From: Alphaproteobacteria bacterium | GTDB lineage: Bacteria; Pseudomonadota; Alphaproteobacteria; Micavibrionales; Micavibrionaceae | Reading direction: 5' to 3' | Assembly: GCA_030750865.1 (NCBI GenBank) | Contig: JASMHE010000008.1 | Span: 186,001-250,000 of the forward strand | DNA length: 64,000 nt | Shown here: positions 7,627 to 28,974 of the stretch, piece after piece | Numbering within the stretch: position 1 is the first letter of the stretch | Layout of the letters: every line of letters starts with the position of its first letter | Made by a program: the position numbers and the translations under genes | Notes under the pieces: generated by a model | The model's database searches: none | Told to the model about the DNA's origin: nothing | The model's input: only the letters and a program-made list of their open reading frames with translations

Positions 7627-7862
7627 GTATGCGTTTTGGTCGTGGCTCGTGATGGCGGGGTATGTTTTCCCCAAATGATCCACAAGAAATGATTCGTTTT
7701 TGCTTGTCCGTGATTAGCCTATGTGAATCAGGGGCTTCGGCGCGATATTTTTGATTTTGGAAAAGCGTCGGCTTTTTAAGCACTTGCCACATATTTCTAA
7801 TCCTGATTAATTGCACCCGTTCCAAATTTAAAAATGATGTTACGAAGAGCGGGAGTACGTGC

Positions 7863-11942: not shown

Positions 11943-12155
11943 TCGATCACGAATTCCTTCGTTTCCCAATATTCTCTTGTTGCATAGAGTAAGTGTTACA
12001 GAGAGCGGGGTGTACACAATATGTGCGTCCTGTCTCTGTGCGCTATCATTTTGTTTTTACAGAATAAAACCTTTTTCTTGTTTTTGGATTGTGCATTGGC
12101 TTTTTTTTATTCTGTGCTAATATTTTATTCAGATTTGTCGCTTATTCTGGGATTT

Positions 12156-12180
12156 CATGCGCATCCATTTCCTGCGCATG
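12156..12180 (+). promoter_or_regulatory. Hairpin in leader of HAD gene
   Basis: A perfect 8-bp inverted repeat (CATGCGCA / TGCGCATG) with a 9-base loop ends 23 bp before the ATG at 12204. There is no T-run, so it is not a terminator. It may be a 5'-UTR hairpin or an operator palindrome. Weak evidence beyond the symmetry. Confidence 0.35.
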
Positions 12181-12203
12181 CTTAACAAGGGATCATAGGT
12201 TCA

Positions 12204-13136
12204 ATGAGTGTTCTAAAAACAAAATTTTGTGAAGGTATTTCAGATATATCAGATAGTTATGCCGCGTTTGTGATTGATCAATGGGGTGTGCTGCATAATG
12301 GTGAAGAACCGTATGAAGGCGTTATCGATTGTTTGAAACATCTGAAAGAACGAAAAAAACAAATTATTATTTTGTCCAATTCGGGCAAGCGGGCCGAAGA
12401 AAATAAAGAGCGCCTGAAATCACTTGGCATCGGGCCGAGCCTTTATACCGATATTGTGACATCCGGTGAAATCACCTGGCAGGGGCTGCATGATCAAAAA
12501 GACGGTGTTTTTAAAGATATCGGTCATAAATGCTTTTTGATGAGCCGTGGCGGTGACCGTTCAATCATCGCGGGGCTTGATATCGAGGTTGTTGACGATA
12601 TTCAGGACGCTGACTTTCTGATGATTAGCGGCACGGATGCGCCTGAAAAGACTTTGGTTGATTATTATGAACCGATTTTGAAGGCGGCCATCCGCAGACG
12701 TTTGAAAGCCGTTTGTGCCAATCCGGATAGTCGCGCGTTGATCGGTGACGGTTATGTGATGGGACCGGGTATGATTGCCCGCCGTTATCAGGATTTTGGC
12801 GGTGTTGTTCATTATATCGGTAAGCCGCATGCGCCGATTTTCCAGCATTGCATCAAGATGTTACAGGAAAGAGATATTTATCCCGGCCAGACTGTGATGA
12901 TCGGTGACACGATGGCACATGATATTATTGGTGCGGCCGCTGTGAATATTGATACATGTCTTGTGAAGACGGGGTTGCATCACGGGTCTTTTGCGAAATG
13001 CACCAACCCGACGGAAGTGGATCATGCGCTGAATATCCTGACGCTGCAATATCACAATATCCGGCCGAATTATCTGGTTGATGTGATGAAGTGGGGTAAG
13101 GCGTTGCCAGACCGTAAGCACAAAAAGCGTTCTTAA
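12204..13136 (+). CDS. HAD-IIA family hydrolase (TIGR01459-like)
   Basis: 310-residue haloacid dehalogenase-type phosphatase of the NagD-related IIA class. Motif I reads DQWGVLHNG (residues ~23-31), in which Trp stands at the usual second Asp position; DxWGVLHDG-type motifs are normal for this alphaproteobacterial subfamily. Motif II is ILSNSG and the C-terminal Asp motif is MIGDTMAHDIIGA. The substrate is unknown; homologues are annotated as sugar- or nucleotide-phosphatases. A hairpin lies just upstream. It is convergent with the patatin gene, with ~127 bp between them. Confidence 0.88.
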   Translation: MSVLKTKFCEGISDISDSYAAFVIDQWGVLHNGEEPYEGVIDCLKHLKERKKQIIILSNSGKRAEENKERLKSLGIGPSLYTDIVTSGEITWQGLHDQKDGVFKDIGHKCFLMSRGGDRSIIAGLDIEVVDDIQDADFLMISGTDAPEKTLVDYYEPILKAAIRRRLKAVCANPDSRALIGDGYVMGPGMIARRYQDFGGVVHYIGKPHAPIFQHCIKMLQERDIYPGQTVMIGDTMAHDIIGAAAVNIDTCLVKTGLHHGSFAKCTNPTEVDHALNILTLQYHNIRPNYLVDVMKWGKALPDRKHKKRS

Positions 13137-13263
13137 CAGTTATATTGAGTTCTCGACAGGTTGAACATGACAGGTGGGCGGCGTGTTGCGCTCGCAGCGG
13201 AGCAGTATGTGTTGCCTGATCTGGGCGTATCTCTGTGGTCCGGTTTCGTCGCGTTTGGTCGCC

Positions 13264-14250
13264 TCAGTCTTGTCCCAATGTTGGGGTCGGGGGCAGCAGA
13301 ACAGACATTGCGGCCTGAATATTTTCCAGATTTTCTTCTACGGCTTCTTCGCCCAGCTTGATCAGTTCGTCGGCTTTCTCGAATTCCAGCAAACCGATAT
13401 GTCCGATATGTGGTTTGATATGAATGTCAGGCGGATCACCGGCAAGGCGGGACCGCGTCAGACGGTCCTGCATAATATTCAAGGCGGACACCATAACGCC
13501 GAACAGGCTGGGATTATTATGTTCGCGCCGGAACAGGCGTTTTTGCATAGATCCTTTGAACTTCTTCTGATCTTCGGGCGATACGTCGTTATCGTTGAAA
13601 ACATCAAAACCTGCAACGGTCTGGAATTTTTGTCCGGGCTTTGCGGCCTTGCCGATCAGATCGGCATTCAAATCGACTGCAATTGTCAGGCGCGATCCGA
13701 GTGCGAGCGCCGTTGATACCGGCACAGGGTTGACGAGCGCGCCGTCAATCAGGTTGCGTTGACTGATTTCCACTGGCGGGAAAACACCGGGCAGGGCGAA
13801 CGAGGCCCGCACAGCATCAATAAAGTTCCCGCGCCGAAGCCAGACTTCGTGCCCTGTGACCATATCTGTTGCAATGGCAACAAACGGGTGAGGCAAGTCT
13901 TCGATATTCATGTCCTGGAAATATTCTTCCATCAGGGCGACCAGCTTTTTCCCGCCAATCAAACCGGCACTGCGGACGCGGAAATCAAGATAGGTAAATA
14001 TTTTGCGGCGGTTGAGTGAAAGCGCCCACTCTTCGAGTTCATCAAGCGTATCTGTCAGATAACAGCCGCCCACAAGCGCGCCGATAGATGTGCCCGCAAC
14101 GATGGTTGGCTCGATGTTGTATTTCTTGAGCGCCTTTAAAACACCAATATGCGCAAAGCCCCGCGCAACCCCGCCACCAAGTGCGAGGCCGATTTTTGCC
14201 GGAGGTGGCGTCGGTGTCTTTGTCGGATTATTCTTTTCTTCTTCGATCAT
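13264..14250 (-). CDS. Patatin-like phospholipase (RssA/NTE type)
   Basis: 328-residue serine lipase. The oxyanion-hole motif GGGVARGFAHIG (near residue 25) and nucleophile motif GTSIGA (near 58) are present, with the dyad Asp in IDGALVNPVP (about 175). This places it in the bacterial RssA-like patatin group, probably acting on membrane phospholipids or acyl esters. I prefer the ATG at 14250 (MIEEEKNN); the open frame extends to 14289 without added homology. Divergent from the ABC exporter at 14347, so the ~97-bp gap contains both promoters. Confidence 0.9.
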   Translation of the reverse strand: MIEEEKNNPTKTPTPPPAKIGLALGGGVARGFAHIGVLKALKKYNIEPTIVAGTSIGALVGGCYLTDTLDELEEWALSLNRRKIFTYLDFRVRSAGLIGGKKLVALMEEYFQDMNIEDLPHPFVAIATDMVTGHEVWLRRGNFIDAVRASFALPGVFPPVEISQRNLIDGALVNPVPVSTALALGSRLTIAVDLNADLIGKAAKPGQKFQTVAGFDVFNDNDVSPEDQKKFKGSMQKRLFRREHNNPSLFGVMVSALNIMQDRLTRSRLAGDPPDIHIKPHIGHIGLLEFEKADELIKLGEEAVEENLENIQAAMSVLLPPTPTLGQD

Positions 14251-14346
14251 GTGCAGTACAACTCTATTGAATTTAGTCCATAATAGCATGAAAATATTAA
14301 AAAAAGTAAAGAAACGCTATTCTAGTACTTTGAAAAACAAAGAAAA

Positions 14347-16107
14347 ATGATGCAAGGCACAAACAAAGAATTCAAAACATCGGCACTGGTCGCCCGTTTG
14401 ATCCGCGATTATCTGAAGCCGTATTTCCCGCGCATTTTGCTGGCTTTTTTGCTGATGGTGATTGCAGCGGCTATGACGGCGGCGTTTGCCAAGTTGATCG
14501 AACCGATTTTGGATGAGGTTCTGAACAATAAACAGCGGCATTTAATCTGGCCGATGGCATCGGCTGTCTTTGCGGCCTTTGCTATTCGAGGACTTGCGAC
14601 ATACGGGCATACATTGCTGATGAACAAAACGGGCCATGAAATTATCGCGCAAATCCAGCATGAATTGATTGAAAAATATATGTCTCTTGATCTTGTCTTC
14701 TTTCATCAGAATACAAGCGGCCAGTTATCATCTCGGATCATCAATGATGTGACGGTGATGCGGAACGCCGTTGTTGATGCGATGACGGGCTTTGGCAAAA
14801 ACCTGATGACGCTGGTGTTTCTGGTTGCGCTTATGTTCTATCAGGATTGGGTCTTGTCGCTTATTGCATTTGTGGCGTTGCCGTTTGGGGCGGCGTTTGT
14901 GGTGGTTATCAGCAAGAAGATCCGCCGTGTATCAGGTAATATTCAGGGCGAGATCGGTCATCTGTCCGAGGTTTTAATCCAGATTTTTCAGGGCATCCGT
15001 CAGGTCAAAGCGTACGGTCAGGAAAAGTTCGAGCAAAAACGGGCCGGTGAGCGCGTGGATCAGCTAAAACGGCATGCAATCAAGGCCGTGCGTCTTGGAA
15101 CATTGTCAGTGCCGTTTAACGAAGCATTGGTCGGATTGGCCATTATGGGCGTAATTGTTTATGGCGGGTTCCAGATCGCAGATGGTGACATGACGACGGG
15201 CCAGTTAATGTCATTCATTGCGGCATTTTCACTGGCTTATGAACCGATGAAAAAGCTGGCAAAGCTGAATAATGCGCTGCAAATGGGTCTTGGCGCGTCT
15301 GAGCGTGTTTTTGAAATTCTAGACCAGCAGCCGCAGGTCGTCGATCAGCGCGGCGCAAAAAACGTAACACTGAAAAAGCCCGATATCGTGTTTCAGGACG
15401 TAACATTCGGGTATGAAGATGATGGCTATGCATTAAATGGCGTGTCTTTTACCGCTGATAAAGGGAAGGTCACCGCATTGGTCGGGCCGTCGGGCAGCGG
15501 TAAAACGACATGTTTGAACCTGATTCCACGTTTTTATGATTTGCAGGGCGGCAGTATTGAGCTTGGCGGCCATGACATTGCAAAAATCAAATTAAAATCC
15601 TTGCGCGCGAACATTGCGCTTGTGTCACAGGATATCACAATTTTTGATGATACGGTGCGGGCGAATATTGCATATGGCCTGCAAAAGACGACGGAAAAAG
15701 ATGTGATTAAGGCCGCAAAGGCGGCTGCTGCGCATGAATTTATTGTGGATATGCCTGATGGCTATGACACGCGTCTGGGCGAAAATGGCGTGAAGTTATC
15801 CGGCGGGCAGCGTCAACGTTTATCTATCGCGCGGGCCATCTTGCGGAATGCGCCGATTTTACTGTTGGATGAAGCGACCTCGGCTCTTGATAATGAATCC
15901 GAAAAGCTGATCCAGAAATCACTGGAAAAGTTCCGCAAGGGGCGCACCGTTGTTGTGATCGCGCACCGCTTATCAACTGTCAAGGATGCGGATAAAATTG
16001 TGGTGCTGAACGAGGGGCGCGTTGTCGAAGAAGGGGCGCACGATGCGCTGATGAAACAAAATGACGGAATTTACACGACAATGTATCAGGCCGGACTGAA
16101 GGAATAA
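14347..16107 (+). CDS. ABC exporter, MsbA-like (TMD-NBD fusion)
   Basis: 586-residue half-transporter. About six membrane helices occupy residues 25-310; the ATPase domain follows with Walker A GPSGSGKTT, signature LSGGQRQR, Walker B ILLLDEATSALD and switch IAHRLST. Length and sequence resemble MsbA/lipid A-core flippases and related alphaproteobacterial exporters. The cargo cannot be decided from sequence; no glycosyltransferase genes are adjacent. It overlaps the start of the DUF192 gene by one base (TAATG), so the two are translationally coupled. Confidence 0.92.
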   Translation: MMQGTNKEFKTSALVARLIRDYLKPYFPRILLAFLLMVIAAAMTAAFAKLIEPILDEVLNNKQRHLIWPMASAVFAAFAIRGLATYGHTLLMNKTGHEIIAQIQHELIEKYMSLDLVFFHQNTSGQLSSRIINDVTVMRNAVVDAMTGFGKNLMTLVFLVALMFYQDWVLSLIAFVALPFGAAFVVVISKKIRRVSGNIQGEIGHLSEVLIQIFQGIRQVKAYGQEKFEQKRAGERVDQLKRHAIKAVRLGTLSVPFNEALVGLAIMGVIVYGGFQIADGDMTTGQLMSFIAAFSLAYEPMKKLAKLNNALQMGLGASERVFEILDQQPQVVDQRGAKNVTLKKPDIVFQDVTFGYEDDGYALNGVSFTADKGKVTALVGPSGSGKTTCLNLIPRFYDLQGGSIELGGHDIAKIKLKSLRANIALVSQDITIFDDTVRANIAYGLQKTTEKDVIKAAKAAAAHEFIVDMPDGYDTRLGENGVKLSGGQRQRLSIARAILRNAPILLLDEATSALDNESEKLIQKSLEKFRKGRTVVVIAHRLSTVKDADKIVVLNEGRVVEEGAHDALMKQNDGIYTTMYQAGLKE

Positions 16108-16685
16108 TGATGCAAGTGATCTATATGATATTTGTCTGTCTTTTGCTCTTGATGCAGCCTGTTGCGGCCCAGCAGCAGGAGAACAGCAGGACACAGAACA
16201 ATAATAATAAGGTTACCGATATCACGGCGCCCGCCGCGGATGTGACGGAGCAGGGCGCCCTGTCATCATCATTATCCTCTGCTGCTGCGGCCGATCAGCA
16301 CGCTGTACCATCCTTGCCAGTGCTGGAGATTAAAACACGCGACGGGCAGGTGGTCCGGTTTCATGTCGAGGTTGTTGATACGCCCGAAAGTCGTGCCAAA
16401 GGTATGATGTTCAGGCAGGCCATGCCCGAAGATCAGGGCATGTTCTTTATTTTCGAAGATTCGCGCCGCCGTTCTTTCTGGATGAAAAATACCCTCATTC
16501 CGCTGGATATCATCTTTATCGATAAAAATGGTGTGATCCGGCATATTCATCATGATGCGGTTCCGCAGGATGAAACACCGATTCCATCCCGGGCCGATAT
16601 CCTGACTGTGCTTGAAATTAACGGCGGTCAGGCCGCGGAAAAAGGGATTCATGTTGGCGACCGCATTTTTCATGAAATTTTTTAG
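16107..16685 (+). CDS. Exported DUF192 protein
   Basis: 192 residues. An N-terminal signal peptide (MMQVIYMIFVCLLLLMQPVAA) is followed by a Gln/Asn/Ser-rich linker of ~50 residues and then the DUF192 domain (about 75-190), recognised by AKGMMFRQAMPEDQGMFFIF, RRSFWMKNTLIPLDIIFID and the closing VLEINGG motif. DUF192 domains are small beta-barrels of unknown biochemical role found in exported bacterial and archaeal proteins. Coupled to the upstream ABC exporter by an ATG/TAA overlap. The next gene downstream is tRNA-Pro, ~90 bp away. Confidence 0.88.
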   Translation: MMQVIYMIFVCLLLLMQPVAAQQQENSRTQNNNNKVTDITAPAADVTEQGALSSSLSSAAAADQHAVPSLPVLEIKTRDGQVVRFHVEVVDTPESRAKGMMFRQAMPEDQGMFFIFEDSRRRSFWMKNTLIPLDIIFIDKNGVIRHIHHDAVPQDETPIPSRADILTVLEINGGQAAEKGIHVGDRIFHEIF

Positions 16686-18666: not shown

Positions 18667-18743
18667 GCGCCCTTAGCTCAACTGGATAGAGCAATTGCCT
18701 TCTAAGCAATAGGTTACAGGTTCAAGTCCTGTAGGGCGTGCCA
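18667..18743 (+). tRNA. tRNA-Arg (TCT anticodon)
   Basis: Full cloverleaf: acceptor GCGCCCT / AGGGCGT, D arm TAGCTCAACTGGATAGAGCA, anticodon stem ATTGC / GCAAT around CTTCTAA (anticodon TCT), T arm GTTCAAGTC, encoded CCA end. It borders the 517-bp gene-free leader of the three-gene cluster. Confidence 0.97.
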
Positions 18744-18799
18744 TTTTCTCCGAATATTTCCCTACATTTTGAAAGTTGAGATTATCCCGCGTTCAGGGC

Positions 18800-18832
18800 A
18801 AAAAAAGGTCCGGAGATCAAAGATCTCCGGAC
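18800..18832 (-). terminator. Terminator-like hairpin, minus-strand orientation
   Basis: An 11-bp stem (GTCCGGAGATC / GATCTCCGGAC, 3-base loop AAA) is immediately preceded on the plus strand by AAAAAAAG. Read on the minus strand this is stem-loop then a T7 tract, the standard intrinsic terminator layout. On the plus strand no T tract follows, so it is not a usual terminator for tRNA-Arg. No minus-strand gene is visible upstream of it (see findings). Confidence 0.55.
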
Positions 18833-18923
18833 AAACGGCGGTAATAGAGGGTGTGTATCTTCATTACTAACGGTAATATTTTATGAATGCAAGAAAAAAA
18901 TGTGTGTTATTGAAAGTTTCTTG

Positions 18924-18942
18924 AAAAAACACTGTGTTTTTT
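18924..18942. repeat. AT-rich palindrome in leader
   Basis: Nine-base arms AAAAAACAC and GTGTTTTTT separated by a single T. The one-base spacer makes an RNA hairpin unlikely but suits a dimeric DNA-binding protein. About 320 bp upstream of the first cluster gene. Confidence 0.4.
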
Positions 18943-19234
18943 GCCTAACTTATGAAAAACAAGCTTTTTACTTAAGTAAAATCTACTTTACACAAAAAGA
19001 AAATTTTGGAGCCTGATTCAGGGCGTCGGGCGAGAGAATCGCGTGTTACAATATTTCAATTTCAGAATAGAAAACTGTCGAAAAATTGCCGAACATAGTT
19101 CGCTGAATTTATTATTGAAAATCAGGGGGTTAAGAAAAAAGCTGTATATAAAATAAAAAATTTCCTTGTAATTACATATATACATAACTATAAATTCGGG
19201 TAAGCAAATAATAATAATTTAAAGAACAACAGGG

Positions 19235-19250
19235 CCTTAATTTTTTAAGG
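19235..19250 (+). promoter_or_regulatory. Hairpin overlapping the ribosome-binding site
   Basis: CCTTAA / TTAAGG arms around TTTT end exactly on the AAGGG that is the only Shine-Dalgarno-like sequence properly spaced (9 bases) from the TTG at 19261. If that start is used, folding would hide the ribosome-binding site. Confidence 0.35.
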
Positions 19251-19260
19251 GTTTGCAGAA

Positions 19261-21627
19261 TTGGGGAAGGGTATGACGCCGGCAGAACGAATTGAACGTT
19301 ATCTCGATGGAACTCAAAAGCACCCGTTTGACTGGGTAAACAATCCTATTTTCTATGATCCAAGACCGACACCAGGTGATACACACACCGAAAAACTGCG
19401 TGCAGCAGCGACAATGCTGTCGATTGCAGCGGCAGAAGTAACCGAACATCTTGATATTTGTTTCCGTGCCAGTTCAATGTCCAATGGCGCGAAAGCATAT
19501 GACCTTGTTGATTTATATGAAGATCAAATTCTAAACCGTGTCGAGGCGACGTATGGCGAGCCATATAAGACGACACAGAATATCATGAAATTCCTGCCCC
19601 CGAGTGAAGTCAAAGAAAAAGTGGTCGCACCGAATGCGCTGAAAGACGAAAATGCGGGCAACCTTCTTGAAATTAATCAGCCTGATAAAGCCGCCGTTGT
19701 TCCGATCTGGACTGAGGCGGCTTTGCGTAACGGCCGTAATGTTCAGGCCTTTACAGGTGGATCCGAATTCGAAGACTGGACGTATGAGGTATATTGGGGA
19801 TCGCGCATGCTTGATGCCTCTTCGCAGGTAATGGGCGGCGACCATGTTTATTCACGGTACGGCAGTTACGAAGATGTGCGCGGTGATCTGGCGCAGTGCG
19901 GTCTGGCAGATGATTACATGAAAACGCCGGATGCCGGTAAACATTATGACATTGTTGATGATGCAGGACAGCCGGTTAGCCACGCTGATCGTATGTGGGC
20001 GCGTGCACAACATGTTTTCGATGTGGTCGAACGCGGTTTTCGTACAGATTTGGGCGCAGCTGCACTGGTCGCGCAGTTCATCATTGATGATTGGCTGAAT
20101 GATATTGAAAACAGCCCGCTTGACCCTGAAAAAGTGCATGATTCACTGAAAAACAGACCACAACAAGACATCAAACGTGCAACGCAGTTAAAGAAAATAA
20201 TGCTGCCTTATATTGCGCAAAAATGCGCGTCATGGATTCCATTTGAAGAAGATGACGATCTGGGCGCATATTACGAAGACAAGATCAAGCCGCTTGTTGA
20301 AAAGGGCGATGCACTTGATGTTGATTGCGATGCGTTGAAGAAAACATTGTTCTCTTACCATCCGCTTGGCGGGTTTGCGCATAAAGATTTATCCGCAGAA
20401 GCGACGGCGAAGCACCGCGAAACGCTGGCGGCACAGTTTAACGGCAATGCAAGCACGCAAAGCCTGAAGGCCGTCAAACGCCGCACGACAGATGGGGCTT
20501 ATTTCCAGTCACCGGCCAAATTATTTGATGAACATTTCTACGAAGATCTGGATGTTTGGGAACGCGCGGGTCTGCCGTTCCTGATGGGCGCGATGGAGTC
20601 TTTCCGTTTGCCGGAAAACGCGCCGAAAGCAGCCTTTTACGTGGCTGAACCAAAAGGCGGCAAGCGCGCGTCCAAGTTTATGAAGAAAAATGATGTTCTG
20701 ACCGTACGCGAGGCACAGAACGTGATTGCGCCGGACGAGTTTGATGCGTCTTTCGGCAAGAAAGTGATCGAAAAGAACAAAGCGGACGAAGAGCTGGTTA
20801 AAAATACGCTGGTCGGCGATGATGCGGTGAAAGCGCTTGGCGTTTCCAATATCGTCAGTACATCGAACATCAAGCGTATTGCTGAATCTGCGGAAAAGCA
20901 CCGTAAATTTGTTGCCGCAAAAGGGACACAGCGTTTTTCACCAAAAGCCTATATGGCGATGACAATGGAATGGATTGACCGGAATGCCGAAGTCGTCGTG
21001 TTGAACGAAGGCTGGTCGGTGCATCATGACGATGTGCAGGTCGCAATGCGGGCGCTTATGCTTGCGACGGGGCTGGTAGAGCGCCCTTACGAAGGCGGCA
21101 AGCACCGTATGGAAATCTTTGTTGAAAAACATAATGCGAAAGGCGAAGTGACGTTGGATAAGCAGGATTTACACAGCCTTATCAAGACGTTATCAGAGCG
21201 TGTTGATACATTGCTTGATAATAATGAAGAGGCTCGCGAACATTACGTAACGATGGCGCGGATGCTGGCTGTTCTTGATATGCATATTGATCCGGTGAAC
21301 CGCAATTTTGAATCTGTACGCGACAAAGCAACGGGCGCAGACAGTAAGCACCAGATTATCGACTGGGCGGCTGTTGACCCGTATCTGACGCATTTCTGGG
21401 AATTTGATCCCGATAAAAAGCAGGAAATTGTCACGATCAGAGAAAAGATGAGAGAGAAGCTGCTGACGATTGGTGTTCAGCAACATAACTTCTCTGCCGA
21501 TGATGTTGTCGAGCTGGATAAAGATTATGTTGATGCGTGGGTCCGCGTGAATGGCGATAGTGCGCTTCTGCATCGTGGAAGCCCGGGCAGTGAAGTCCGT
21601 CATATTCCGGATGGGCCGACCGTTTAA
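19261..21627 (+). CDS. Large protein of unknown function, first gene of three-gene cluster
   Basis: 788 residues from the TTG at 19261 (AAGGG 9 bases upstream) or 784 from the ATG at 19273 (poorly spaced GGGGAAGG); the choice is open. Soluble, acidic, no signal peptide or membrane helix, and no domain I can name. Residues ~455-620 look alpha/beta: a strand AAFYVAEP, then a long helical stretch, then NAEVVVLNEGW followed by HHDDVQVAMRALMLATG. The strand-GW-acidic-helix pattern faintly recalls nucleoside 2-deoxyribosyltransferase-like or TIR-like Rossmann folds, but the catalytic Glu context is not evident. The C-terminal part has a helical segment and ends HIPDGPTV. The next gene follows after 43 bp in the same direction, so a functional link with the two nuclease-like proteins is likely. 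Confidence 0.85.
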   Translation: MGKGMTPAERIERYLDGTQKHPFDWVNNPIFYDPRPTPGDTHTEKLRAAATMLSIAAAEVTEHLDICFRASSMSNGAKAYDLVDLYEDQILNRVEATYGEPYKTTQNIMKFLPPSEVKEKVVAPNALKDENAGNLLEINQPDKAAVVPIWTEAALRNGRNVQAFTGGSEFEDWTYEVYWGSRMLDASSQVMGGDHVYSRYGSYEDVRGDLAQCGLADDYMKTPDAGKHYDIVDDAGQPVSHADRMWARAQHVFDVVERGFRTDLGAAALVAQFIIDDWLNDIENSPLDPEKVHDSLKNRPQQDIKRATQLKKIMLPYIAQKCASWIPFEEDDDLGAYYEDKIKPLVEKGDALDVDCDALKKTLFSYHPLGGFAHKDLSAEATAKHRETLAAQFNGNASTQSLKAVKRRTTDGAYFQSPAKLFDEHFYEDLDVWERAGLPFLMGAMESFRLPENAPKAAFYVAEPKGGKRASKFMKKNDVLTVREAQNVIAPDEFDASFGKKVIEKNKADEELVKNTLVGDDAVKALGVSNIVSTSNIKRIAESAEKHRKFVAAKGTQRFSPKAYMAMTMEWIDRNAEVVVLNEGWSVHHDDVQVAMRALMLATGLVERPYEGGKHRMEIFVEKHNAKGEVTLDKQDLHSLIKTLSERVDTLLDNNEEAREHYVTMARMLAVLDMHIDPVNRNFESVRDKATGADSKHQIIDWAAVDPYLTHFWEFDPDKKQEIVTIREKMREKLLTIGVQQHNFSADDVVELDKDYVDAWVRVNGDSALLHRGSPGSEVRHIPDGPTV

Positions 21628-21670
21628 AAATAATAATAAATAAAGAATCAAACAGGGAGATAAAAACACA

Positions 21671-24600
21671 ATGACATATCAAAGCGACGAATTGCTGCGA
21701 CGTGTCGGTCTGTTCTTTCGTAAAGGACGCAGGCCAAAGGATTCTGTTGTCTTATCTTCCGCGTCATCTGATCCGAAAACAGGCATGCTGGCCCGCGTCA
21801 CATCGGAAACATCATTAGATAAAAATAACGATGTTGAAAGCATGTCCCTGAAATATTGGCGGCATCAGCCATATGGCATGAATCGTGATCAGCACCTGAT
21901 TACGGTGAAAACACAGCCCAATGCCCGCAAAACAGCGCGTACGCTGTCACAGCTTTGGGTGCAATCACAATGTATTTTTGATGTATCCCGTGGCGACACG
22001 CTTGATGATCCGGAAACGGCAAAGCGCGTGAACCGTGTGCTTGAAGGTGTAAACCGCATGAATGCGCATCTGCGCGAAGGCGGTGATGTGGCCGATACGG
22101 CAAAAATATTTGATGCATGCATGTTTGATGATGTTCTGGGCGAGCATCTGATTATCAAAGGGCTTAGCAAAGAAGGCGGTTATACATTTTCACTGTCTTC
22201 GGCATTTGCACGCGTCGCAGACGAAGAGGCAAAGCGCATTGCGTTCAAAAATATCAGCGAAACAGATTTGAAGGCGATCCTGGGCTTCCAGATCAATACA
22301 CTGGAAAAAGACAAGAATTACGATAAGGCGCGGGAACTGACAACAAATGATCCGCAATCTGGTAAAACATATGTATCCGGCAGTGCCTATAAAAAAGCCA
22401 AAGACGGTACGATTACAGCCAGTGTATATCTGCGCCCTGATGATGGTGAAGCGACGCTTGAGGCCGAAGATGTGCCGGATTTTGTATCTTTTGAGTTCAA
22501 GCCGGTTTCCGGTAAGGGGGGCAAAAATGCAGGCTATGAACTGACGGATGTCAAATTCGAAGGCCGCAAGATTTCGCTGGATGATACGGATATGATTTTG
22601 CGCCTGATCGGTTTGTCGCAAGATTGTAATAGAGATATCTGTAACTGGAAATATCCGTCCTTTATGGATCATATCGCAAAACGTGATTTGCTTGACAAAA
22701 TTGATCCGTTACCTGTGCCGAAATCACTCGAGAAAAAAGGCGGTGAATTGCTGTATGTCTCTATGCATGGTAGCGGCACAGAAAAACATATCGAGAATTT
22801 CGGCGATCAAATCGGTATTGGTGGTTTGTTCCTGCAACGTGGCCGTAAACAGGATGGTATGATCAGCACGGTCGGTGCTGTCGTTGACTTCCCGTTTGCA
22901 TCCGGGGGTCCTGATTCCAATTATGACGGGGCTGTACCTGATTATCTGCCGTTCTGGGATGATATCCGGTCATTCTTTATCACGCACGATCACTTTGACC
23001 ACGCCGATGGTATGGCGTATTACGCCAAAGCCGGTCTGATGAAGAAGAAAGACGTGTATGCCACACCGGAAGTAAAATATATGCTGCGCGCGAAGATGGA
23101 TTATTTGCAAGTGCCAAAGAACTTGCGTCCGAAAATCCATGTCTTGCGGGAAGAAGGGCATGTCGCGCTGAAGGACGAAGATGGCGTGAACCGCCTGATT
23201 GTACAATATTCACCGAACGGTACGCGTCACTCTGCGCGGTGTACGCCGTATGTTGTGTCCGGTGTTTACGGGAATGAACATTATAACGGATCAACAGTTG
23301 TCTATGGTGACGGGAACACGATTAACCCGAGCGGCCGCGAGTTTTTCAAGAAGGGCTTGAAAGCACTGGACGGCAAAGAAGATGTGCCAAAAGAGCTGCT
23401 GAAATCCAAATATAGCGTTGTGCTGCACGATATTACGGCTGTCCGTTACGAAGGGCACGCACCGGAACCTGAGGACGTTGAAGAAAATCTGTCGATTGCG
23501 ACAGGCTGGTTTGCCGATAAAGGCGTGTTGATGGCGCCGATCACAACAAATGATGCGGAATATACCGTCGCGATGAACACGGCCAGCCGCACAGGCCGTC
23601 ATATTACAGCGGTCGGCAGTAACGCCGAAAGACGCCTTGCGTGTAAGAACCTGTTCGGTGTTGATCCGTTCATCAATTTGCGTGAATTTGCGCTTGATCC
23701 GTTTGAAGAGTTTTTCAAAGGCGATTCCATTATCCCGCGCGACATTCTGGAAGACTATGTTGATCGCTTCCTGGCTCTGGATGATGATGACGAAGAAAAA
23801 GGCAAGGTTCCTGCCACATATCTGGAAGCACTGGAACAAGCCCGCAAAAAGATCAAGAAGACAGAAAAAGACAAGGTGCAACCACGTGACCGTGAACATG
23901 TCAGTGCCGTACGTTCCTATATCAAGGAAACACTGGATAAACACGGACAGCTTGTTTTTGAAAATGACGTGAACGGTTACTTGATGTGGAAAGCCATCAT
24001 GGATGGTCAGGATACGGCCTCTATGCGGGCCACGCGTACATCGAAAATGGCCAAAGAATTCCGTGACAATCCGTCCGAGTTGATGATTTTCGTCACAGGG
24101 ACGCAAGGCAACGCCGAAGAGCATTTCTCGACCGTGCAGAAATTGGTGAATTACTTCTCCTTGCTGGATGCGAATCCGGAAGTGCAGCCAACCGGCTATA
24201 AAATCAATTTGCAGGATTATGTGGCGGTGATTACACAGTCAGCCATTCCGGGCAACGAAAATTCACAAGATCGCATGATTCAAGACCTCGTAGAACAACG
24301 TGATATCACGGTGATCGGCGCGATCAAAGACGGGTTCAAGGTTTATAACCCGAAAGACAAGCGTCATGAAATCGAACATGACCTGAGACGACGTGGCTGG
24401 AATTTTGATACAGATGCCAATGGCAATCTGCATGTGCATGGCCATTCAATTCACTTCCACGGTCATGGCTTTAAAAAGAATTTGGAAAGCATTATTTCCG
24501 ACATTCCGGCTCATACGCACGAAGTGCACCACGTGCCGGATCGTAACTCTTATGACACGTTCCGTAGACTGAGCCGTGAAAAAGGATTTGGTCATTCCGA

Positions 24601-24997
24601 ACAGCAACCCGAAGATTTTCTTGTGCGCCGTATTAGCGCCAAAGGCAAAAAGCCAGGTGATTTATATGCGCCGGTCGCGCGGCTGAACCCGTCCTATATT
24701 CTGGTGAATATGGAACGTAAGTACGGGCAGTTCTATAACGGGTCATTGTCATTGAGCCGCGTGACAAAGCTGGCACGCGAAGGCGGTAACCGTGATGACG
24801 GGCTGATGGCGCGTACAGGCGGAAAAGACGGCACTTATCAGCGCAAGACAGCGCATCGTGACTGGGAAACAGCAAATAACGATAATACACGGAAGCCGAT
24901 TACACGGATTCGTAAAATGGGGCCGGGGGTCGCAGATCGCGGTCACGGGCGGAAGGCCCAGAATATTCCGCTCTGGAGCAAAAGAACGCCGAGTTAA
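21671..24997 (+). CDS. RNase J-like metallo-beta-lactamase/beta-CASP protein with long N-terminal extension
   Basis: 1108 residues, about twice a usual RNase J. Residues 1-~350 are unrecognised. The rest follows RNase J motif by motif: metal motif HDHFDH (439-444), His in HSARC (520), Asp in VYGDGN (547), VVLHDITAVRYEGHAPEPEDV (around 582-602) matching the RNase J 'DSTNAE...SE' region, GSNAERR (649-655), TGTQGNAEE (809-817), QSAIPGNE (856-863) and a final VHGHSIHFHGHG (around 922) in place of SGHA. Insertions lie between the metal and beta-CASP halves (about 690-800). The metal ligands are kept, so nuclease activity on RNA or DNA ends is plausible; the usual HGE near the end is not clear. GGGAG lies ~11 bases upstream; the third gene starts 27 bp after the stop. 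A housekeeping RNase J is less likely given size and company. Confidence 0.88.
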   Translation: MTYQSDELLRRVGLFFRKGRRPKDSVVLSSASSDPKTGMLARVTSETSLDKNNDVESMSLKYWRHQPYGMNRDQHLITVKTQPNARKTARTLSQLWVQSQCIFDVSRGDTLDDPETAKRVNRVLEGVNRMNAHLREGGDVADTAKIFDACMFDDVLGEHLIIKGLSKEGGYTFSLSSAFARVADEEAKRIAFKNISETDLKAILGFQINTLEKDKNYDKARELTTNDPQSGKTYVSGSAYKKAKDGTITASVYLRPDDGEATLEAEDVPDFVSFEFKPVSGKGGKNAGYELTDVKFEGRKISLDDTDMILRLIGLSQDCNRDICNWKYPSFMDHIAKRDLLDKIDPLPVPKSLEKKGGELLYVSMHGSGTEKHIENFGDQIGIGGLFLQRGRKQDGMISTVGAVVDFPFASGGPDSNYDGAVPDYLPFWDDIRSFFITHDHFDHADGMAYYAKAGLMKKKDVYATPEVKYMLRAKMDYLQVPKNLRPKIHVLREEGHVALKDEDGVNRLIVQYSPNGTRHSARCTPYVVSGVYGNEHYNGSTVVYGDGNTINPSGREFFKKGLKALDGKEDVPKELLKSKYSVVLHDITAVRYEGHAPEPEDVEENLSIATGWFADKGVLMAPITTNDAEYTVAMNTASRTGRHITAVGSNAERRLACKNLFGVDPFINLREFALDPFEEFFKGDSIIPRDILEDYVDRFLALDDDDEEKGKVPATYLEALEQARKKIKKTEKDKVQPRDREHVSAVRSYIKETLDKHGQLVFENDVNGYLMWKAIMDGQDTASMRATRTSKMAKEFRDNPSELMIFVTGTQGNAEEHFSTVQKLVNYFSLLDANPEVQPTGYKINLQDYVAVITQSAIPGNENSQDRMIQDLVEQRDITVIGAIKDGFKVYNPKDKRHEIEHDLRRRGWNFDTDANGNLHVHGHSIHFHGHGFKKNLESIISDIPAHTHEVHHVPDRNSYDTFRRLSREKGFGHSEQQPEDFLVRRISAKGKKPGDLYAPVARLNPSYILVNMERKYGQFYNGSLSLSRVTKLAREGGNRDDGLMARTGGKDGTYQRKTAHRDWETANNDNTRKPITRIRKMGPGVADRGHGRKAQNIPLWSKRTPS

Positions 24998-25024
24998 TAA
25001 CAGAGCAAATGTTAGTGAAAACAA

Positions 25025-28000
25025 ATGATTAAGAATATCGCGAAAAAAGCCGATGTATGGCACTTGATAGAACGAGGTGAACTGGTTGAGCATCACTTCG
25101 ACTTCGAGGCATTTTCGCTTGAAACAAATTTCGCGCAAATCGCCTCTTATGGTGATGCGATCGGTGATATTGCGGGCAACTTTATCGATTCCACCGAATA
25201 TCATGTAAAGCGCCCTGATCGTTATATCCCGACCATTGAATCGCTGGCTGTGACCAAGACAGGGCCATACGAGTTGGAAGAAGAAGGGCGCCTTGACCAT
25301 CACGAAGCAATGGGCAAGATTGCAGGTCGTTTTGAAAGCGCATCAATGATGGTGCAGCACCTTGACCTTGAAAGCGAAGACATTTCTTTTGAAACGGTGC
25401 GCGTGTTCGGTAATGAAGAATACGGCAAAGAACATCAGGAAACGGTTTTGAAATATCCGCTTCTGGATGATGAAGGTAACGTTGTTTATGATGTGCGCAT
25501 CCATCCTGATCGCAATATGATTGCCTTCCGTCTGGATGATGATGTCGAGAGTGATTATTACCACAATGAAGATGTGACGTTTTACCGTGATGAAAACGGT
25601 GACCGCTGGAAGATGATTAAGCCGCGGACGTTGGAAAGCGGGTATCGCATCAAATGGTATGATATGGCTGTGTTGCGGGCGAATTTGATTCGTGCCGGAT
25701 ATCACCCGAAAAACACATTCTTTGCGCATTCAAAAGCGACCATTACCGACAAGGAAATGGCGAAAAACCACGCGGTTGACGGTTACAGCGTTGTGATGAA
25801 CACGCATCTGTTCGGTAAGCATGGTGAAGAAGGGCTGCAAATTGACCGCCGTATTGATCAAAATACCGGCGAGGATGTCTCCTCAGCCAAGCTGGAATTG
25901 GTGATGCAGAAAAATTCTCGTTTTGAGAACGCGACACTCGGTATTTCCGAAGGTGTGCGCATGCCGGATGGGTCTGTTTATGACCAACGCAAAGCGCATA
26001 AGAGCCCAGCTTATGACTCGATGGCATCGTACCAGATTTATAATTTCTGCCGGAAGCTCGAGCCGGAAATCTTGAAAGAGATTGAGGTTCAGGCCGATAA
26101 ATCAGCGTTACAGGCAATGCTGCCCGGTAATAACCTTGTTGATCCGCAATTTCCGATTTTCGGTATGTTGCGCAATGACTGGCGTACGCAGCCGCATGCT
26201 GATCCGCTGGCGTTCGTTGGCTTTGATGACCGTCAGGGGAAACCGCCGCGCCGCGCGATTCTGGCACGCCTTGATATTGATTTGCGCAATTACAAATATA
26301 ACGGGCAGACATTGCTCGATATGTTGAAAGCGCACGAAGAAACGGATGATGCGCATCTGTACCAAAGCCCGATTTACCGCCTGTTGAAGGATAAATTGTT
26401 CCAGCATGATTGCCCGTTCCGTATCGAAGGATTGAAACGCTGGGGCGGCGCAATCCCGTTTGATAAATGCTTTAATTCGAAAAGCAGCGCAACATGGGAT
26501 ATCGAAGAACTGGACAGCAATTTTGCTTTCTTGCGCAGCCATCCGGCGCTCAAAGAAGCGATCATGGATTGTGTCGAGATTATCAACTATGAACGCCAGC
26601 AGGAATTTGAAACACCGGCCAATCCGATCATGGAAGAACAGTGGCTGTATAGCGGTTTTGGCGAGCTTGATTATTATGAGCGCGAAGCCGAGTACGAACG
26701 TTATAAGCGCCGCAAAGACGGTATGAAGTCTTATGTCGGGAAGGGGCGCATTCACTCCTTTGCCGAAATGCTGTTCGAACGCGCCAGCCGTGAATATATC
26801 TTCTTCAATGATATGGATAATTTCCTGCATCATGGCTTTATCCAGCCGCATCCGATTGACTGGAGCGATGATGACGATGTTGTGAAGAATTACGGTGAAC
26901 AACTGCGCAAGATTTACCGCAAGTTGAAGAAGAAAGATTCGCCGCATGTGGCACTGTTCAAACGTTTTGTCGTGGATGAGAAATTCAAGCCATCCAAGAG
27001 CCCTGATGTCTTGCGCCGTTTCCGTACAGAAACACTGAAACGTTTGCTGCGTAACGATGAAAAAGAGCGCAACGACAAGAATTCCGATTTTGCCGATGGC
27101 TTCATCGACAGTAAAAATTTCAACAAGCGCCGTCAGATTTTTGCAAACGCATCACGTGATTTCCGTGTGATTGATGAAGGCGGCCGCGAAGTGTCATTGA
27201 ATGTGCTGCGTGATCTGTACCGCACATGGCCCAATGAAGTCATTCAGCGCTTTGATAACAAGAAATGGCGTATCCAGTTCTATCGTTTGTCGTCCGAGCC
27301 ATCAGTGTCTGCGATTCTGATGCAGTTTGCAGATAAGGGACGTTTGAAAGAATTGCCCGAAATCTGGCAGGACCGCTATGACACATTAAAACGTCTGTAT
27401 CTGAACGGACCGCCGAACCAGAATGATTTGTCGGATTCTGATATTCGTTGGTTGGGGATACCGCAACTGGACCGCCAGTTGAAAGCGCTTGAAGTAAACG
27501 CCAAAGGCGGCAGCTTCAAAGAAGGGCTGCGTCGTGTTTTCCGCGATGCAACGGCAGCCGGCGCGGCGGAAATTTACCTGCAGTCCGATGAAGGGCAACG
27601 TTTCTTGTCTGATTACCGTGAATTTCTGGATACGATCCGTAAAGGCAATGCGCTGAGCGAGGATTTTGTCGAGGCGCTGCATTATGATCCGGAAACGGGC
27701 GCGCCGTATGATTATATCGAATTCGAAATTCCGCAAAGCCGGAACAGACATGTCATTATTGATGTGCCGGACCCGCATTTACGCGCACCATTGCATGATA
27801 TTCGCGTGGGTGTGACCTCGCTTGTCGTACCGGAAATCAGCAAAAGCAAGCGTGACAAAATTGAAAAGGGATATCCGGTTATTCTGCGCGGCCAGCAAAC
27901 AGGACGCTTGTATGCCGCCGGCAAGACAGATATAGCAAAAGCCTTGCCGGAAAACGGTTCGACCGAAGATTATTATGATCTGGCGCGCCGTGCTTATGAA

Positions 28001-28663
28001 GGGGAAGCGGGAATGAACTTTCCGTCGGCCAGTAAACGTGATGTGATCGTCATTCAGGACGTTATGCCGCTGGCGGCAACGCGCAAGATCGATCCGTCTG
28101 TACCGACATTCCGCGTGCCGCTCGTCTATCTGGACGGTCTTGTGGCGCCTGAGCTGGCCTTCAGAGAGAAAAGAGAGCCGATACAAGGATTGTTGATGCC
28201 ATCTGATGTTATTCATCAGCGTGTCGAGGAAGGGCAGTCCATTCGTTTCCGTGGTATGGTTGCGGAAATGAATGCCAAAATCGAAGGCACGGAAGGCGAA
28301 GAAACGGGCGATATTTATGAATCAAACGTTGTTTCGGTCAACAGAATCACCGTCGGTGAGCTATGGTCGCAAATTCAGGACGGGTCCTTCACAGATGCGG
28401 ATGCGCGCCGTTACGGCTATGCCGGGGCTTATCCACTGCGTGACAGCTTGTTACAAAGCTATAATCAGGTCATGTCACCTGATCCATATGCCGAAGAGCT
28501 GACACTGATCGAATTCGACAAAGTCGATAAGAAGAGCTGGGCTTATTTCAACCCGCCGGAAGCGCCGCGCGCGGCGATGGTGGCGAAGGGGCAGCGCGTG
28601 TCGCCGTCTGCATATCGTGATTTGTCTGGTGTGAAGCCTGTGAACGGTCCGCAGCCCGGATAA
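25025..28663 (+). CDS. Exonuclease I (SbcB)-like protein with C-terminal extension
   Basis: 1212 residues against ~475 for E. coli ExoI. Residues ~20-700 align with ExoI: FDFEAF (D26, E28, motif I), AQIASYGDAIGD, YIPTIESLAVTKTGP, then D213 in YDMAVLRANLIRAGYHP, which aligns without gaps to ExoI FDDEVTRNIFYRNFYDP, and later the SH3-like and C-domain blocks. Motif III, AHDAMAD in ExoI, reads AYDSMAS (329-335), so the catalytic His and last Asp seem replaced by Tyr330 and Ser335. The nearby H325 might compensate. Residues ~870-1212 are a further unknown region with beta-rich segments. It may be a DNA-binding pseudo-exonuclease or an altered nuclease. Weak Shine-Dalgarno; last gene of the cluster; no clear terminator in the 236 bp before tRNA-Asn. 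Confidence 0.85.
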   Translation: MIKNIAKKADVWHLIERGELVEHHFDFEAFSLETNFAQIASYGDAIGDIAGNFIDSTEYHVKRPDRYIPTIESLAVTKTGPYELEEEGRLDHHEAMGKIAGRFESASMMVQHLDLESEDISFETVRVFGNEEYGKEHQETVLKYPLLDDEGNVVYDVRIHPDRNMIAFRLDDDVESDYYHNEDVTFYRDENGDRWKMIKPRTLESGYRIKWYDMAVLRANLIRAGYHPKNTFFAHSKATITDKEMAKNHAVDGYSVVMNTHLFGKHGEEGLQIDRRIDQNTGEDVSSAKLELVMQKNSRFENATLGISEGVRMPDGSVYDQRKAHKSPAYDSMASYQIYNFCRKLEPEILKEIEVQADKSALQAMLPGNNLVDPQFPIFGMLRNDWRTQPHADPLAFVGFDDRQGKPPRRAILARLDIDLRNYKYNGQTLLDMLKAHEETDDAHLYQSPIYRLLKDKLFQHDCPFRIEGLKRWGGAIPFDKCFNSKSSATWDIEELDSNFAFLRSHPALKEAIMDCVEIINYERQQEFETPANPIMEEQWLYSGFGELDYYEREAEYERYKRRKDGMKSYVGKGRIHSFAEMLFERASREYIFFNDMDNFLHHGFIQPHPIDWSDDDDVVKNYGEQLRKIYRKLKKKDSPHVALFKRFVVDEKFKPSKSPDVLRRFRTETLKRLLRNDEKERNDKNSDFADGFIDSKNFNKRRQIFANASRDFRVIDEGGREVSLNVLRDLYRTWPNEVIQRFDNKKWRIQFYRLSSEPSVSAILMQFADKGRLKELPEIWQDRYDTLKRLYLNGPPNQNDLSDSDIRWLGIPQLDRQLKALEVNAKGGSFKEGLRRVFRDATAAGAAEIYLQSDEGQRFLSDYREFLDTIRKGNALSEDFVEALHYDPETGAPYDYIEFEIPQSRNRHVIIDVPDPHLRAPLHDIRVGVTSLVVPEISKSKRDKIEKGYPVILRGQQTGRLYAAGKTDIAKALPENGSTEDYYDLARRAYEGEAGMNFPSASKRDVIVIQDVMPLAATRKIDPSVPTFRVPLVYLDGLVAPELAFREKREPIQGLLMPSDVIHQRVEEGQSIRFRGMVAEMNAKIEGTEGEETGDIYESNVVSVNRITVGELWSQIQDGSFTDADARRYGYAGAYPLRDSLLQSYNQVMSPDPYAEELTLIEFDKVDKKSWAYFNPPEAPRAAMVAKGQRVSPSAYRDLSGVKPVNGPQPG

Positions 28664-28899
28664 TAAAGCTATAAGCTGTCGTTGACTGCGATATGCACCG
28701 TTACTGCGTCGTTTTACGGCATTCCTTGCTTGCCTGCATCTCATACATTGTCATTCGTTGATCTCTATCTTCTGCTTCAGGCGGAGGGAATTGATGTACG
28801 CGCTGTGTATTATTTCAACGAATATGTGCGAGAACATTGTTCAGCCGCCGGTTCATGGGCTGTTATTTCGTGGAATAGCATTGTTGGGAAAAGAAAGAA

Positions 28900-28974
28900 T
28901 GGCTCCCCGAGCAGGATTCGAACCTGCGGCCAAACGATTAACAGTCGTTTGCTCTACCGCTGAGCTATCGGGGA
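28900..28974 (-). tRNA. tRNA-Asn (GTT anticodon)
   Basis: On the minus strand: acceptor TCCCCGA / TCGGGGA with G73 and encoded CCA, D arm TAGCTCAGCGGTAGAGCA, anticodon stem AACGA / TCGTT around CTGTTAA (anticodon GTT), T arm GGTTCGAATCC. Marks the right edge of the three-gene cluster. Confidence 0.97.

Follow-up and report, generated by a model that had tools for sequence, protein, structure and literature searches.

In a 64,000-nucleotide stretch of an alphaproteobacterial genome of the family Micavibrionaceae (hereafter the window; assembly GCA_030750865.1, contig JASMHE010000008.1, positions 186,001 to 250,000), we identified a three-gene operon in which a beta-CASP protein of the RNase J type (gene B) lies beside an exonuclease resembling ExoI, also called SbcB (gene C), and behind a large duplicated protein (gene A). 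A first-pass annotation had described B as an RNase J-like enzyme with an N-terminal extension; beyond that, B belongs to a three-gene system with the ExoI-like exonuclease, and we consider it probable that B and C make up a paired nuclease complex. Nucleases of the RNase J type and of the ExoI type are both familiar from textbooks and have been studied separately. The gene set, a three-component system built on these two known nuclease types, is apparently undescribed: in the literature searched, which covered few subscription papers, no such system is described, and the terms ‘RNase J’ and ‘SbcB’ co-occur only in a general review. The three genes lie on one strand in the order A-B-C, with gaps of 43 bases (A-B) and 27 bases (B-C), at the following positions of the window:

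19273 to 21627, plus strand: gene A, about 784 amino acids, a tandem duplication of an alpha/beta plus helical unit of about 380 residues; start codon ATG 19273, chosen to fit the homologues.
21671 to 24997, plus strand: gene B, an RNase J-type beta-CASP protein with an N-terminal extension; a single open reading frame (ORF) of 1108 amino acids with an ATG start.
25025 to 28663, plus strand: gene C, an ExoI (SbcB)-like DEDDh exonuclease of 1212 amino acids with a long C-terminal extension, recognised by profile.

The operon was found in 23 genomes, 21 of the 142 genomes of the order (the Micavibrio group) and two more in a 385-genome sample of the class. Gene order at these loci is A-B-C, all on one strand, in 19, B-C-A in one (L094, positions 7819-16591, in a distant genome) and B-C in three (L045, L049 and L098), where the contig ends before A. 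Among the A-B-C loci, A is cut by the contig end in L042 and split in L046 (12168-14737) into at least three ORFs, with B and C still open. Measured by the longest ORF, the gap between B and C ranges from -40 to 62 bases, the exception being L047, where a HAD gene stands between them; in L093, a 142-aa ORF lies between A and B. Genome G053, with pieces of A and C at contig ends and without B, was left out of the count, and in G838 the match of the B profile crosses one stop, yet B is an open ORF of 1207 residues. The three genes coevolve: over 18 loci, pairwise distances correlate among the three proteins with Spearman coefficients of 0.81-0.87, and none of 2000 permutations gave values as high.

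That B and C work together is best supported by their fusion. Four genomes of the order (G021, G022, G035 and G846; loci L050, L051, L100 and L101) encode both parts as single chains of 1551-1604 amino acids. In comparison with NCBIfam, L050, L051 and L101 gave best E-values of 8e-25 to 2.4e-19 for RNase J models and of 1.6e-15 to 3.7e-9 for ExoI, under the curated cut-offs in both cases, while the RNase J part of the L100 fusion, from G022, was seen in separate profile and RNase J searches. Because they are naturally fused, B and C probably form one complex. Gene A was not found in G021, G022 and G035 using window A as query (G846 was outside this first search), and the profile of A likewise had no match in the stretches retrieved for the fusions.

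Regarding gene B, the features of its core and of its extension are listed below, all five metal-site entries being present in 21 of 21 homologues (the alignment omits the partial B of L049 and L098):

22706 to 24856, plus strand: metallo-beta-lactamase (MBL)/beta-CASP core, residues ~346-1062, from profile, AlphaFold2 model and superposition.
Inside the core, near residues 704-741: low-confidence insertion, from the model.
22985 to 23002, plus strand: HDHFDH metal motif (H439, H441, D443, H444).
23228 to 23230, plus strand: H520 (HSA), motif 3.
23309 to 23311, plus strand: D547 (GD), motif 4.
24464 to 24466, plus strand: H932 (HGHG), motif B, placed by profile alignment.
24530 to 24532, plus strand: H954 (VHHVPD), motif C, placed by profile alignment.
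21746 to 22150, plus strand: first beta5-alpha repeat of the extension (residues ~26-160), from model secondary structure and hhalign of the halves.
22283 to 22705, plus strand: second beta5-alpha repeat (residues ~205-345), from model secondary structure and hhalign.

The RNase J motifs read in the first-pass annotation (HDHFDH, HSARC, GD, TGTQGN and SAIPGNE) are all found in the window ORF, in that order, with GD standing in YGDG. Its proposal that fold and metal site are intact agrees with the eight invariant metal-site residues, namely H439, H441, D443, H444, H520, D547, H932 and H954, and with the superposition given below; D587 is D in 19 homologues and E in two. The SGHA motif had been called altered, and the residue preceding GH does vary (S in eight homologues, H in seven, comprising the subclade of the window and L095, and other residues in six), but motif B itself is kept as G931-H932. 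The terminal HGE, which had seemed not obvious, corresponds to H954 in ‘VHHVPD’, 22 residues past H932, which the profile pairs with the H of ‘PIHGE’ in RNase J1. In the RNase J motif lettered ‘TGxQGE’, the Glu position (814) is occupied by N in 12 homologues, T in six and S in three.

On its own, window B matched the Pfam families Lactamase_B_2 (6.2e-6) and RNase_J_b_CASP (0.0041), both under the cut-off, and the RNase J models of NCBIfam at 1.8e-5 and 0.022. Using a profile of the 21 homologues against the PDB, RNase J1 was reached with an E-value of 3.6e-15. The AlphaFold2 model has a mean predicted local distance difference test score (pLDDT) of 83.8, and residues 346-1028 of this predicted model superpose on RNase J 5a0t with Z 29.6 and a root-mean-square deviation of 2.4 Å over 434 residues of the 454-residue chain. 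Among the matches listed, bacterial RNase J gave Z values of 26-30, archaeal RNase J around 24, and CPSF/Integrator types 20-22. B very probably works like RNase J.

The extension of about 350 residues reported for B is genuine and measures 345 residues. Its start matches close homologues, whose N-termini open with the same segment, so the extension is not a mis-start, and it is conserved throughout the 21 homologues. The two halves of residues 1-345 match each other (hhalign 94%, E 1e-7), while other slice pairs stayed at or below 4.2% in the same comparison, leaving aside the trivial core/insertion pair and two self-comparisons of A; judging from these matches and the model, the extension is a predicted duplicated beta5-alpha domain. 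It is also homologous to the N-terminus of the fusions L050, L100 and L101 (98%, E 2e-13; L051 was left out). The earlier suggestion of a new substrate-recognition domain therefore stands as far as a conserved, duplicated domain shared with three of the four fusions is concerned, with recognition as its putative role.

That B forms a distinct beta-CASP branch, as had been proposed, is borne out by a maximum-likelihood tree of 52 rows, in which a branch supported at 100/100 has the 21 B proteins on one side and separates them from 23 ordinary RNase J. All four fusions, and with them four stand-alone proteins resembling RNase J, fall on the same side as RNase J but not within its clade. This tree is midpoint-rooted without a distant outgroup, has some long terminal branches, and omits partial or broken RNase J copies (L124, L125, L127), one with no ORF extracted (L126), two fusions already included (L128, L062) and the partly masked L089. 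The genome of the window also has a separate full-length RNase J, the normal copy that had been suggested as a check, covering positions 1-545 of 546 of TIGR00649 with 394 bits, just below the 400-bit curated cut-off; window B scores 13.1 bits against the same model and does not reach the cut-off. A separate RNase J is present in 25 of the 26 genomes searched, the exception being 66% complete; the copy of G037 is split into two pieces and has an internal stop. B shares with RNase J the MBL/beta-CASP fold, the metal ligands and the motif order, but differs in its duplicated extension, the replaced Glu, its own clade, its constant neighbours A and C, and the normal RNase J alongside. Because it stays below the sequence cut-off, has replaced the TGxQGE Glu and lies elsewhere in the tree, we do not file B as RNase J. 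As a separate observation, loci L088, L089, L090, L063 and L129 hold stand-alone RNase J-like ORFs of 492-614 residues with a ‘GGN...G.N’ start and without the long extension of B; four of these are in the tree and fall between RNase J and the fusions.

Gene C is ExoI-like, with its exonuclease domain in the N-terminal part:

25025 to 26104, plus strand: exonuclease domain of gene C, residues 1-~360, from profile and alignment.

Residues D26, E28, D213, H325 and D331 are invariant in 22 of 22 members (the contig-cut C of L045 and L052 being omitted) and agree with the motifs known as DEDDh, the spacing from H to D being x4 or x5. The 22-member profile matched ExoI structures in the PDB at 3.8e-10 to 3.3e-7, with E. 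coli ExoI at 3.8e-10 to 4.6e-10. Window C has no Pfam match; among the 22 members, two weakly match the ExoI C-terminal model and one weakly RNase_T. The curated ExoI cut-off (NF008746, 260 bits) is not reached by C, with no match in the window genome at E <= 0.001 and 36.5 bits for the best operon gene. C resembles Exonuclease I in its DEDDh residues and in matching both the exonuclease and the C-terminal regions, but it has 1212 amino acids versus about 480, a long extension, and a beta-CASP partner.

The ORF of gene A, 788 residues long, opens at TTG 19261, and ATG 19273 agrees with the starts of the homologues. The alignment has 18 members; left out are L046, where A is broken, L042, where the contig end cuts it, the fragment in G053, and L045, L049 and L098, where A lies off the contig. 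In self-comparison, the first and second repeats match at 82%, and the middle and C-terminal parts at 72%; the model has a pLDDT of 86.1. A CARF/NADase-type fold gave marginal matches (8ka1, Z 6.2; Csm6 9w3u, Z 4.7). One element of the first repeat is strictly kept:

19852 to 19872, plus strand: S198-R199-x4-E204 of gene A, with numbering from the TTG; invariant in all 18 members.

Phage proteins of the DUF4406 type were compared with A after a weak Foldseek match in a viral library (rank 10, probability 0.80, E 0.55). Against 13 of them, the two repeats gave 37.7% and 40.0%, and eight other slices at most 0.22%; once merged, the repeats gave 81% with an E-value of 1.2e-5. As controls, 120 column shuffles of the separate repeats gave at most 1.52% and the reversed repeats 0.2%. 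The matched part spans 43-59 columns, in which both repeats align to the DUF4406 segment ‘W..S.GA..E’; the S-x5-E spacing of repeat 1 equals that of ‘SRGARLE’ in a phage DUF4406-type protein, with S198, R199 and E204 conserved in all 18 members in repeat 1 only. Kinship of A with DUF4406 is, on these sequence comparisons, likely but not secure. Set beside the DUF4406/nucleoside deoxyribosyltransferase (NDT)-like proteins (DNPH1, MilB, DmtZ), A aligns to this segment and has the spacing in repeat 1, but it is duplicated, has about 784 residues and no Pfam match, varies at the presumed position of the catalytic Tyr and does not match the PF05014 set. The genome of the window also has a separate gene of the nucleoside deoxyribosyltransferase family (L130, G000:C8:135156-135590), with 124 bits.

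Several loci carry further genes beside the operon. A DeoC-family aldolase adjoins the operon at seven of the 23 loci, in two arrangements, and all seven proteins have the motif KTSTG or KTCTG, which is catalytic in DeoC. At L041, L043, L097 and L098, a deoxyribose-phosphate aldolase gene directly follows C, overlapping it in L041, L097 and, by the longest ORF, L098; two of these aldolases were scanned and scored 138 and 167 bits, above the deoC equivalog cut-off of 117.3. At L039, L040 and L095, a diverged DeoC-like gene is divergent to A, and the two that were scanned against TIGR00126 gave 5e-6 and 1.7e-5, under the cut-off. The DeoC-type genes of L039 and L098 match by BLAST at 2e-8. Since L041, L097 and L098 belong to one genus, the number of independent associations is below seven and perhaps as low as two. 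Besides, L047 and L096 have homologous HAD proteins that are nearest to pyrimidine 5'-nucleotidase (4e-13 and 4e-12, below the cut-off).

From these elements we can draw a working model. B and C would work as one cytoplasmic complex that degrades single-stranded nucleic acid, B working on RNA or single-stranded DNA and C digesting single-stranded DNA from the 3' end with release of mononucleotides. Both extensions, the duplicated one of B and the long one of C, probably serve to hold complex and substrate. That this paired nuclease also serves a catabolic purpose, feeding nucleotide breakdown, is possible, and we propose it tentatively. In such a scheme A probably binds or cleaves the released nucleotides, and the 5'-nucleotidase-like HAD protein and the deoxyribose-phosphate aldolase, where present, would carry the products onward. 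A fuller version is more doubtful still: a cytoplasmic dismantling complex, with B and C bound or fused, that would feed A as an N-glycosidic nucleotide hydrolase and, in some lineages, the 5'-nucleotidase and the aldolase, turning DNA and RNA into bases and a sugar of central metabolism. Should C yield deoxynucleoside monophosphates (dNMP) and A act as a dNMP N-hydrolase, 2-deoxyribose 5-phosphate would result, the substrate of DeoC. According to two reports, hydrolases of the NDT superfamily convert dNMP to base and 2-deoxyribose 5-phosphate, and DeoC was used as the coupling aldolase to assay the latter (PMC12884076, PMC3834327). An occasional DeoC partner would fit because dNMP N-hydrolysis yields its substrate. 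As for lifestyle, Bdellovibrio breaks prey DNA and RNA down to nucleotides (PMC7925074).

A number of results speak against this catabolic proposal. Searches of A against the PDB gave no confident fold, the best Foldseek hit having an E-value of 9.7e-4 with a TM score of 0.13 and the best VIA-align hit Z 6.2. In global mode, the repeats match DUF4406 at only 6.3% and 3.4%, and against a joint DUF4406 and PF05014 (NDT) alignment A reached only 0.8-7.3%. Kinship with NDT (PF05014), suspected at first from the ‘SRxxxxE’ spacing, was not supported: 28 PF05014-type sequences gave 0.1-0.8%, in line with the controls, though the PF05014 set itself matches DUF4406 at 96% in a positive control. No Pfam match to DUF4406 or NDT was obtained in the 18 members. 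A catalytic Tyr in the first strand is reported for the NDT family (PMC12884076); at the presumed position in A, located by eye outside the aligned part, the 18 members have Y in nine, F in six (including the window), M in two and I in one. Regarding the partners, a search for DeoC (PF01791) gave no match in the window genome, and DeoC is not enriched genome-wide with the operon: within the order it occurs in 7 of the 21 genomes that carry the operon versus 59 of 121 others (counts that we read from a 66-genome match list, with G037 and G841 under the cut-off). The operon is patchily distributed. Finally, PMC3189940 describes nucleotide synthesis in Micavibrio aeruginosavorus as complete and reports no known transporters for nucleotides, which leaves a need for salvage in doubt.

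The patchiness was quantified with the B profile. Within the order, 28 of 142 genomes match at E <= 1e-10, comprising 21 B proteins (two of them contig-cut), the four fusions and three other stand-alone proteins (G070, G094 and G879; 492-589 residues), which were not counted as B. Of the 385 genomes sampled from the class, six match: a pair of operon genomes from within the order, a single fusion and a single stand-alone protein, plus the operons of G311 and G400, which belong to other families. Among 398 genomes sampled from the phylum, the profile matched only the window's own genome, and the named records that carry B are Micavibrio or metagenome-assembled genomes of Alphaproteobacteria/Proteobacteria. 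Window B is 44-52% identical to the genes of four other genomes and 21% identical to that of a relative of the same genus, a sequence pattern suggestive of horizontal movement or of an ancient paralogy followed by loss. The loci stand at different chromosomal sites. In the window, tRNA-Arg(tct) and tRNA-Asn flank the operon (18667-28974), and between tRNA-Arg and gene A there is an inverted repeat of 11 pairs (18808-18832) that has a T-run on the minus strand. The operons of L038, L046 and L048 are also beside tRNA-Arg(tct), with common flanking genes, one of the three being inverted. A tRNA-linked mobile island was considered and rejected, as this tRNA-Arg neighbourhood is common only to the window and these three among the loci viewed (attachment repeats were not looked for). 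The idea of a virus or plasmid gene was likewise rejected: B was unmatched in phages, plasmids and viral contigs and C in viral contigs, the viral scans using short strict patterns.

One could argue that the operon is a defence against phages and plasmids, in which A would sense or alter nucleotides and B and C would destroy RNA and DNA once activated. The patchy presence fits this idea, as do the different chromosomal sites and the signs of horizontal movement seen in the identities and in the tree. The family to which A may be related is labelled ‘TIR2 superfamily’ in one phage record of DUF4406. In addition, PMC12669027 presents Cas14, a beta-CASP nuclease, as the effector of type VII CRISPR, and the type VII complex 9j9e is among the structural matches of B. 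Cas14 and B thus share a beta-CASP core within a multi-protein system, but the match has Z 20.4 versus 29.6 for RNase J, and A and C have no Cas match in Pfam scans. RTasSbcB of the DRT defence in PADLOC also has an SbcB-like exonuclease in a multi-protein system, and its model recognises one of the fusions at 3.6e-18 and, weakly, a single C at 0.0025; window C, however, is unmatched, and A and B have no reverse-transcriptase match. Window A, B and C have no PADLOC match at E <= 0.1 in the 2023 library. From ten neighbouring proteins scanned, three matched (helicase, RtcR-type AAA and cyclase models) as single proteins and not as a whole system, and many flanking genes are housekeeping genes by our reading of their sequences. 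DeoC and 5'-nucleotidase-like partners are, to our knowledge, unusual for defence. Defence is the main rival reading and a serious one, though we hold it somewhat less likely than the catabolic proposal. In three loci, convergent homologues of the nucleotide-cyclase type adjoin C (L037, 14269-15423; L038, 3934-5088; L099, 191-1348); the L038 gene, the only copy scanned, matched Guanylate_cyc at 4.4e-16 and the PADLOC PycC models at 9.7e-17.

Less probable again is a housekeeping complex for RNA/DNA processing or repair that would replace an absent ExoI and supplement RNase J. In its favour, no separate ExoI-family match (E <= 0.001) was obtained in the 17 operon genomes among the 26 searched; the sole one, with 223.5 bits, is in G023, which has neither operon nor fusion. 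Yet five of the six searched genomes without operon or fusion also lack an ExoI match, and the operon is dispensable, because 117 of the 142 genomes of the order have neither operon nor fusion by the B profile (one of them, G053, has the A and C pieces). As for the reading that B is a plain RNase J whose start was called wrongly or whose neighbours are unrelated, its RNase J-like fold and catalytic residues notwithstanding, we give it hardly any credence, since the 100/100 separate clade, the extension in 21 homologues and in fusions, the 13.1 versus 400 bits and the coexisting RNase J in 25 of 26 genomes rule it out.

Returning to the paired nucleases, the conserved operon and the natural fusions suggest one machine with two different cutting cores that handles nucleic acids. 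In the Micavibrio group, relatives of predatory bacteria, it provides a system that is defined and can be tested, and its fused single-chain version could be expressed and solved directly.

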